In this document: one piece after another, positions 24,334 through 25,780 of the stretch
How the letters are laid out: every line of letters starts with the position of its first letter
How positions within the stretch are numbered: the first letter of the stretch is position 1
NCBI GenBank assembly: GCA_020161435.1
Contig: JAIUNV010000003.1
Span: forward strand, 248,001 to 312,000
Direction of reading: 5' to 3'
DNA: 64,000 nucleotides
Origin: Bacteroidota bacterium
GTDB taxonomy: Bacteria; Bacteroidota; Bacteroidia; Chitinophagales; Chitinophagaceae
Program-made: the position numbers and the translations under genes
Notes under the pieces: model-generated
Told to the model about the DNA's origin: nothing
Database searches by the model: none
Seen by the model: the letters and a program-made list of their open reading frames with translations, nothing else

Positions 24334-24604
24334 AGGGTTGCGGGTAAGCGCCCCCAGCCCCCGGTGGGGAAATGGAATGGGACGTGGATGATGGGATACA
24401 CGGATATATGGGACGCGGATGTTGCGGATGGGTCGGATTTTCACGGATCTTTTTTGGGTGCATTCTCTCGCAGGCCTCCTGGCCTGTGAGAAGCCGTTAC
24501 TAATGTTTGAATAATGAATGGGGTGCGGATATATGATACGCGGATTTTTGCGGATGGAACGGATGTTCACAGATTTATTGGTGATGATTTGATAGGCTGC
24601 CAAA

Positions 24605-24683
24605 GCCCTGAAAGGGCGATACTTTTGTAGCCACGGGCGTAGCCCGTGGAATATGCATACAACAAGTAGAGCCCTGAAAGGGC
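24605..24683. repeat. REP-like cluster of three palindromes
   Basis: GCCCTGAAAGGGC occurs at 24605-24617 and again, identical, at 24671-24683. Between them lies a perfect 8-bp-arm palindrome CCACGGGC-GTA-GCCCGTGG at 24631-24649. The symmetric layout (A-B-A) in a gene-free region resembles bacterial interspersed palindromic elements. No transposase is associated in this window. Confidence 0.75.
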
Positions 24684-24860
24684 GGTGATAATTTTATGGC
24701 CACAAATTCACGGATTTCTTGGACGCGGATTCTGAGGATGAAACGGATTTTGCGGATTCTATTTCGATCTTCGAATAGAAATCGTAATCCAAAAAACGAG
24801 TTCTGATACATCAAAATATATCTGTAATCTTTTCCTATACAATACTTACAAAAAAATAAG

Positions 24861-25598
24861 ATGATTCGCCAAGCAATTATCACAAGTTCTACTTGGAAAT
24901 TTCTACTTCATGGAGTAATCAACATTCAAGATTATAGGAACCATGTAACAAAAAACAGCGATTTAAAAGCGTTGAATGCAACGATTTTAATGCAAACGGC
25001 TTCAGCAATTGAAGGAGCAATTACAAGCACTTTGATACAACATATTCATAATAGCAAACCTTATAAAACTGCAAATCGAACAAACGACTTTGATACAAGA
25101 AGAATTCTCGATGACTTGATAGAACAATTATTCAAATCTCAATGGAAAGACCTTGAATCAAAAGCAAATCTCATAGCCGAAATCGAATTGAAAACGATTG
25201 GCAAAAAATCTTGGGAGGATATCCAGCACTTGTTTAAACTAAGAAACTTACTTGCTCATGGCGGAAGTGTCATTTATAAACTTGATTTAATCTCTAATGA
25301 GAATTCTGAATTTGGAACTTATGTTGAAAAAAGAAAAACCACATTTAATAAAAGCGACCTCTTCCAATATCTAAAAAAGAAAAATCTCATTCATGACATA
25401 AGCAATGAACGAGATTTCCTATTAGAGTCACAATTCTTAACATCTGCAATTACAAATCACTTTTCCAATCAAGGATTACGATTTCTACAAAGCTTTCTGC
25501 TTGCTTATAGCAATGTCCGCCACCCAACTGGTATATTAAAAAATGACATTGAATCTACAATTCAGAAGATCCAATCTTTCTTGGATTCTTCTAAATAA
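24861..25598 (+). CDS. AT-rich orphan gene with HEPN-type RNxxxH motif
   Basis: A 245-residue, mostly helical protein of no family I can name with confidence. Residues 125-135 read FKLRNLLAHGG, giving Arg128-Asn129-x3-His133, the signature of HEPN-fold RNases and related helical proteins. There is no signal peptide or membrane segment. Base composition is much more AT-rich than the neighbouring genes and codons end mostly in A/T, which suggests transfer. It is a single gene between a repeat-rich region and a GC-rich repeat; no antitoxin-like or nucleotidyltransferase partner is adjacent. It could be a defence or toxin-like protein, or a structural HEPN protein. Confidence 0.6.
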   Translation: MIRQAIITSSTWKFLLHGVINIQDYRNHVTKNSDLKALNATILMQTASAIEGAITSTLIQHIHNSKPYKTANRTNDFDTRRILDDLIEQLFKSQWKDLESKANLIAEIELKTIGKKSWEDIQHLFKLRNLLAHGGSVIYKLDLISNENSEFGTYVEKRKTTFNKSDLFQYLKKKNLIHDISNERDFLLESQFLTSAITNHFSNQGLRFLQSFLLAYSNVRHPTGILKNDIESTIQKIQSFLDSSK

Positions 25599-25780
25599 TA
25601 TGTTCATTCAATTCTTGCACTACTGCCGAAGGGCTGCGCTGGCTGGAAGGTGAGGCCGCAGGCCGAAGCCCGCAACGCAGTGCAGGGCCGAACGCAGTGA
25701 GCCTGTAAGACGGCGGACTGCAGCCGGGCGATGTACTGCTGCTGACAGCCCCACATTTGTATTGCATCAATAAAAGGTCG
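25599..25780. repeat. GC-rich intergenic element
   Basis: About 130 bases from 25620 to 25755 are strikingly GC-rich and made of related words such as GAGGCCGCAGGCCGAAGCCC, AACGCAGTGCAGGGCC and GAACGCAGTGAGCC. The contrast with the AT-rich gene directly before it is sharp. No frame is convincing. It is probably a dispersed repeat. Confidence 0.55.

Follow-up and report, generated by a model that had tools for sequence, protein, structure and literature searches.

A putative single-gene HEPN effector on a small AT-rich insert in a repeat-filled intergenic site of a Chitinophagaceae genome

HEPN systems and the gene under study

HEPN ribonucleases are recognised by an R-x4-6-H motif in which a polar residue follows the arginine, together with an acidic residue further upstream (PMC3710099). 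HEPN proteins of the AbiD/AbiF and AbiJ types have been tied to phage defence (PMC3710099, PMC12373285), and the AbiF of C. difficile resides in a prophage (PMC12373285). The PD-T4-2 system, whose B component belongs to the HEPN_RiboL-PSP family (PF18735), gave native protection against T4 (PMC9519451). Other described proteins of this kind include those of the HEPN-MNT toxin-antitoxin pairs, the RTasHEPN family of PADLOC (PDLC03820, labelled 'DRT') and the DUF4145, MAE_28990 and ApeA HEPN families.

The gene considered here lies in a window of 64,000 nucleotides, by which we mean the whole stretch of DNA that was analysed. It reads on the plus strand from an ATG at 24861 to a stop at 25598 and encodes 245 residues; the frame is intact, with no internal stop. 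A preliminary description of the locus had given the same coordinates, frame and length. The features of the region are the following.

24394..24761, no strand: host repeats, CGGAT-type and hairpin units; genome G157, which lacks the gene, carries a copy at this site with 82% identity
24604..24649, no strand: hairpin repeat unit, sub-threshold Rfam Acido-Lenti-1 match on the minus strand
24762..24860, plus strand: AT-rich leader, presumed to carry the promoter; 99 bases, 26% G+C, RNA structure z -0.53
24762..25591, no strand: DNA with no counterpart in G157; roughly the span that was acquired, ends not fixed to the base
24861..25598, plus strand: HEPN-type gene, 245 aa, conserved E51, G52, R128, N129 and H133
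25242..25259, plus strand: putative HEPN active site, codons R128-N129-L-L-A-H133, based on conservation in relatives
25618..25756, no strand: GC-rich dispersed host repeat, 7 own-genome matches at E <= 1e-5

The composition of the gene had been described as sharply unlike that of its neighbours, and the figures bear this out. Its G+C content is 0.325 (32.5%), against a mean of 0.476 (sd 0.021, minimum 0.427) for the 33 other genes of the window, which gives a z of -7.1; its GC3 is 0.280 against 0.518 (sd 0.052), a z of -4.6. On reading their sequences, we take the two neighbours to be glyS and a membrane acyltransferase-like gene, and they look like housekeeping genes. No sensor, antitoxin or defence gene adjoins the HEPN-type gene among the window ORFs of at least 150 aa, as judged by reading, and the earlier remark that it stands alone is true within the window. 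Unlike PD-T4-2, it has no DUF262 partner, such a pair adjoining only the relative found in genome G126. It also differs from RTasHEPN in having no reverse transcriptase beside it (by eye, window ORFs of at least 150 aa) and from the HEPN-MNT pairs in having no adjacent MNT nucleotidyltransferase (by reading). Unlike the AbiD/AbiF and AbiJ types, the protein gave no Abi_2 or AbiJ profile match, and no upstream ncRNA was found.

The insertion site in related genomes

We searched nine genomes of the same genus with both flanking genes, and found glyS in eight and the membrane acyltransferase-like gene in seven. The two genes adjoin each other in G210 and G157. In G210, the flanks match at the DNA level with 96.1% identity (2725 bases) and 92.3% identity (2644 bases); in G157, the values are 92.9% (1775 bases) and 92.8% (1698 bases). 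The HEPN-type gene is absent from this site in both genomes. The preliminary description had proposed that the gene was inserted and had suggested looking for it at this locus in relatives; these two empty sites, with flanks 92-96% identical, agree with the proposal. A single-sequence query recovered the gene from one of ten genomes of the genus and from two of the 394 that were sampled across the taxonomic family. Given the two empty sites in close relatives and its presence in one genome of the genus out of ten, the gene is a recent, patchy acquisition. A gain in this lineage would fit better than repeated loss because of the composition of the gene. The opposite picture, vertical conservation with host-like composition, was not found: the distribution is patchy and the z is -7.1.

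The comparison with G157 also delimits what was acquired. This genome has no HEPN-type gene but does hold the right repeat and, at 82% identity, the left repeats, separated by about 216 bases of other sequence that is mostly a hairpin-type repeat. G210 has neither the left repeats, nor the right repeat, nor this intervening sequence. The gene and its AT-rich leader therefore form a separate segment of about 0.83 kb, and the HEPN-type ORF is the only one of at least 80 aa confined to it (about 24762-25600). No target-site duplication could be read in the comparison with G157, because that genome has the 216 or so bases of other sequence at the position of the insert. In our best reading, a recent event brought some 0.83 kb of AT-rich DNA, the gene and leader only, into this intergenic spot, which is filled with repeats and lies between glyS and the membrane acyltransferase-like gene.

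The repeats match the earlier report of a palindrome cluster on one side of the gene and a GC-rich repeat on the other. Those on the left (50% G+C) comprise three imperfect CGGAT-type units (24394-24764), of which further copies occur at the same spot in G157. They contain two exact copies of AGCCCTGAAAGGGCG, and a CCACGGGC/GCCCGTGG hairpin, as read from the sequence, stands between the repeat copies. The hairpin unit at 24604-24649 matches Acido-Lenti-1 with 29 bits for a gathering threshold of 37 (E 3.4e-4); a strict pattern of it was found at five places in its own genome, a reversed control giving none, and it may be a dispersed REP-like element. The right repeat (61% G+C) also adjoins glyS in G157 and in the more distant G290 and G367 of the same genus. 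We considered whether the repeats were part of the gene's own system and rejected the idea: they are a host feature, since G157 has repeats of both kinds at this site although it lacks the gene.

A perfect 15-base inverted repeat (24776-24790 and 25473-25487) joins the leader to the 3' part of the gene. It was rejected as marking the ends of an element: one arm lies inside the gene, and about 2.6-3.1% of sequences simulated with this composition contain such a repeat.

A family with conserved residues

Seven homologues make up the family, namely the window protein and one protein each from G362, G701, G213, G1178, G1351 and G126. The G362 protein was found with a single-sequence query, that of G701 and then those of G213, G1178 and G1351 with growing alignments, and the G126 one adjoining a PF18735 gene. 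A repeat search of 186 genomes with all seven matched the already known G000 and G126 and no further member. Two other matches were rejected as relatives, one in G1087 covering 51 positions and one in G962 that falls within a transporter-like protein about 1,000 aa long. The searches sum to 1,994 genome-searches, with many genomes repeated and queries differing among genomes; at the sensitivity of these searches, the family is rare. No match to the window protein turned up by tblastn among 72,556 plasmid records or among 50,697 phage records; the same holds for two relatives in the plasmids and for one in the phages, and pattern-plus-tblastn scans of viral contigs and of genome contigs were likewise empty. 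The window protein and two alignments, compared by sequence with solved structures, gave nothing credible, and a narrow literature search on solitary HEPN genes in this group listed no paper on such a family.

The preliminary description had pointed to an Arg-Asn-x3-His motif at Arg128 and His133, and it is indeed present as R128-N129-L-L-A-H133. By itself, RN-x3-H is thin evidence for a HEPN protein: about 0.03 occurrences are expected in a protein of such composition, and 2 of the 33 other window genes also contain it. The evidence becomes strong only because the motif is conserved in the relatives. These share 16-23% identity with the window protein over the alignment, in which the start Met, E51, G52, R128 and H133 are the only invariant columns; N129 is kept in six of the seven members and replaced by D in G126. 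The R-x4-6-H element of the superfamily is therefore found in all seven proteins as R128 and H133, with the following N129 in six, and E51 supplies the upstream acidic residue in all. This conserved set reads as the HEPN endoRNase signature, and the earlier statement that the motif is typical of HEPN ribonucleases gains from it as well as from several sub-threshold matches to HEPN-family profiles.

The window protein passes no curated family cut-off, and neither it nor any relative matches Pfam at its own. Below the cut-offs (PF18735, PF18737, PF18739 and PF13643), five of the seven members match a model of the HEPN clan at E < 0.1: RiboL-PSP with G701 (8.6e-5), G1351 (0.012) and G362 (0.059), Apea with G213 (0.063) and DUF4145 with the window protein (0.095). 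G1178 and G126 match none at this level. The DUF4145, MAE_28990 and ApeA models each weakly match one member across the motif region, but below cut-off, and no fused domain of their kinds was reported. The likeness to HEPN_RiboL-PSP extends to three of the seven members, to an aligned RN-x3-H motif and to the true PF18735 gene directly upstream of the G126 relative. On the other hand, no member reaches its 28.4-bit cut-off (the best has 23 bits), the window protein has no PF18735 match at E <= 10, and most members of the present family share a longer C-terminal part. In a profile comparison with five RiboL-PSP HEPNs, of the eight PF18735 loci found, the RN-x3-H helices were aligned, though at an hhalign probability of only 8.6%; none of 60 column-shuffled decoys did as well (maximum 17.6 against 27.6 for the real profile).

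The only PADLOC family matched by the window protein is RTasHEPN (6.4e-5, 21 bits, residues 41-135 on profile positions 6-91 of 148), which matches five of the seven members. NCBIfam and PHROGs gave weak matches to unrelated or unnamed models only. AlphaFold2, run twice with the window protein as a single sequence, produced all-helical models of very low confidence (pLDDT 38 and 44), too poor to be compared with known folds. Altogether, it is very improbable that the protein is some other helical protein with RNxxxH by chance: the occurrence of the motif elsewhere in the window and the poor models would allow it, but conservation at such low identity and the convergent HEPN-clan matches argue against it.

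The relatives occur in varied settings. The G1351 copy has a tyrosine recombinase gene on either side, the two being separated by about 7 kb. That of G701 (locus L042, 9312-9827) is near a tyrosine recombinase; it ends early and may be a pseudogene, because its C-terminal part continues as a match in another frame (E 0.0087). In G126 (locus L051, 302-2822), a DUF262 gene, a PF18735 HEPN gene and the family member follow one another on the same strand. The DUF262 gene matches PD-T4-2 A at 1.7e-49, but NsnA better at 6.5e-62, and the PF18735 gene matches PD-T4-2 B at 1e-5; this run could possibly be an extended PD-T4-2-like locus. The G213 copy comes after the gene of a 201-aa protein that also has an RN-x3-H motif and weakly matches HEPN models. 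The two RN-x3-H genes of G213 (locus L047, 8753-10257) are 221 bases apart and the family member is the downstream one, as it is in G126. The copies of G362 and G1178 have metabolic-looking neighbours on short contigs.

Proposed role and competing explanations

We consider the gene to be, with somewhat better than even confidence, a horizontally acquired, single-gene HEPN effector, and our best reading is that it was carried as mobile cargo. It is most likely a small acquired effector of the phage-defence or toxin type, of a rare but recognisable kind. The tyrosine recombinases beside the G701 and G1351 copies, the ParE-like gene near the former and the PD-T4-2-like pair in G126 speak for this reading; against it stand the housekeeping-looking neighbours of the window copy, the metabolic-looking ones in G362 and G1178, the lack of any Pfam match above cut-off, the low hhalign probability, the uninformative models and the inactivity of the HEPN domain of AbiA on the RNAs tested (PMC11077055). 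By its residues, the protein fits the HEPN superfamily, and it probably works like known HEPN effectors. We infer a HEPN fold, a dimer, a trigger and a benefit. The protein would dimerise, and the helix bearing R128-N129-x3-H133, aided by E51, would make a metal-independent RNA-cutting site. The effector would be latent in the uninfected cell, and phage or another stress would trigger the cutting of RNA, so that growth or the phage is stopped. Such RNase activity and a role in phage defence, possibly of the abortive-infection type, are predicted for the gene.

One could assume instead that the gene is the orphan toxin of a toxin-antitoxin pair, HEPN-MNT or similar, whose partner was lost and which is silenced or tolerated. 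HEPN genes are common as toxins of such pairs (PMC3710099), a ParE-like toxin gene lies about 250 bases from the G701 copy, and the 0.83 kb insert confines no partner ORF of at least 80 aa. However, no MNT-like neighbour was recognised by eye among the ORFs of the relatives, no Pfam model of an MNT-associated HEPN (such as DUF86) matches any member, and the ORF has stayed intact despite the cost that an active toxin without its partner would impose. We hold this explanation to be unlikely.

A non-catalytic HEPN protein, with an RNA-binding or structural part to play, or a decaying relic without present role, seems to us no more probable than an orphan toxin. The HEPN domain of AbiA has the motif and cut none of the RNAs tested (PMC11077055), the window gene is alone, and the G701 copy is apparently broken. 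Against this, R128 and H133 are kept in all seven members despite their divergence, as would be expected for catalytic residues, and the window ORF has no internal stop. The 'harmless relic' that the preliminary description had offered as one option is less likely, given an unbroken ORF that has kept the conserved residues of its family.

It is more improbable still that the effector is restrained by an ncRNA just upstream, in the manner of AbiF and RCd22. In C. difficile, the HEPN-like toxin AbiF is neutralised by an ncRNA that bears repeats and lies upstream of it (PMC12373285), and our gene is likewise preceded by a 99-base AT-rich leader and by repeats. But the leader folds no better than shuffled sequences (z -0.53), no Rfam family was found at gathering threshold, the repeats upstream are those of the host and occupy the G157 site without the gene, and Abi_2 does not match the protein.

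Returning to the acquired single-gene effector, a broader and rather doubtful hypothesis would be that the family, as yet unnamed and with proteins of about 225-245 aa, consists of stand-alone HEPN proteins, each a complete one-gene phage-defence module. A single polypeptide would then sense and act through its HEPN core and shared C-terminal part; the gene would travel by itself into clusters of intergenic repeats and would at times join PD-T4-2-like pairs as an accessory effector.

The gene introduces a family of small, rarely found HEPN proteins that the Pfam cut-offs miss and that one profile of a defence library reaches only weakly. It is also a clear instance of one defence-like gene having entered an intergenic site full of repeats, and sister genomes preserve the site as it was beforehand. 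Should the protein prove active, the gene would amount to a compact system of its own in which four residues are defined.
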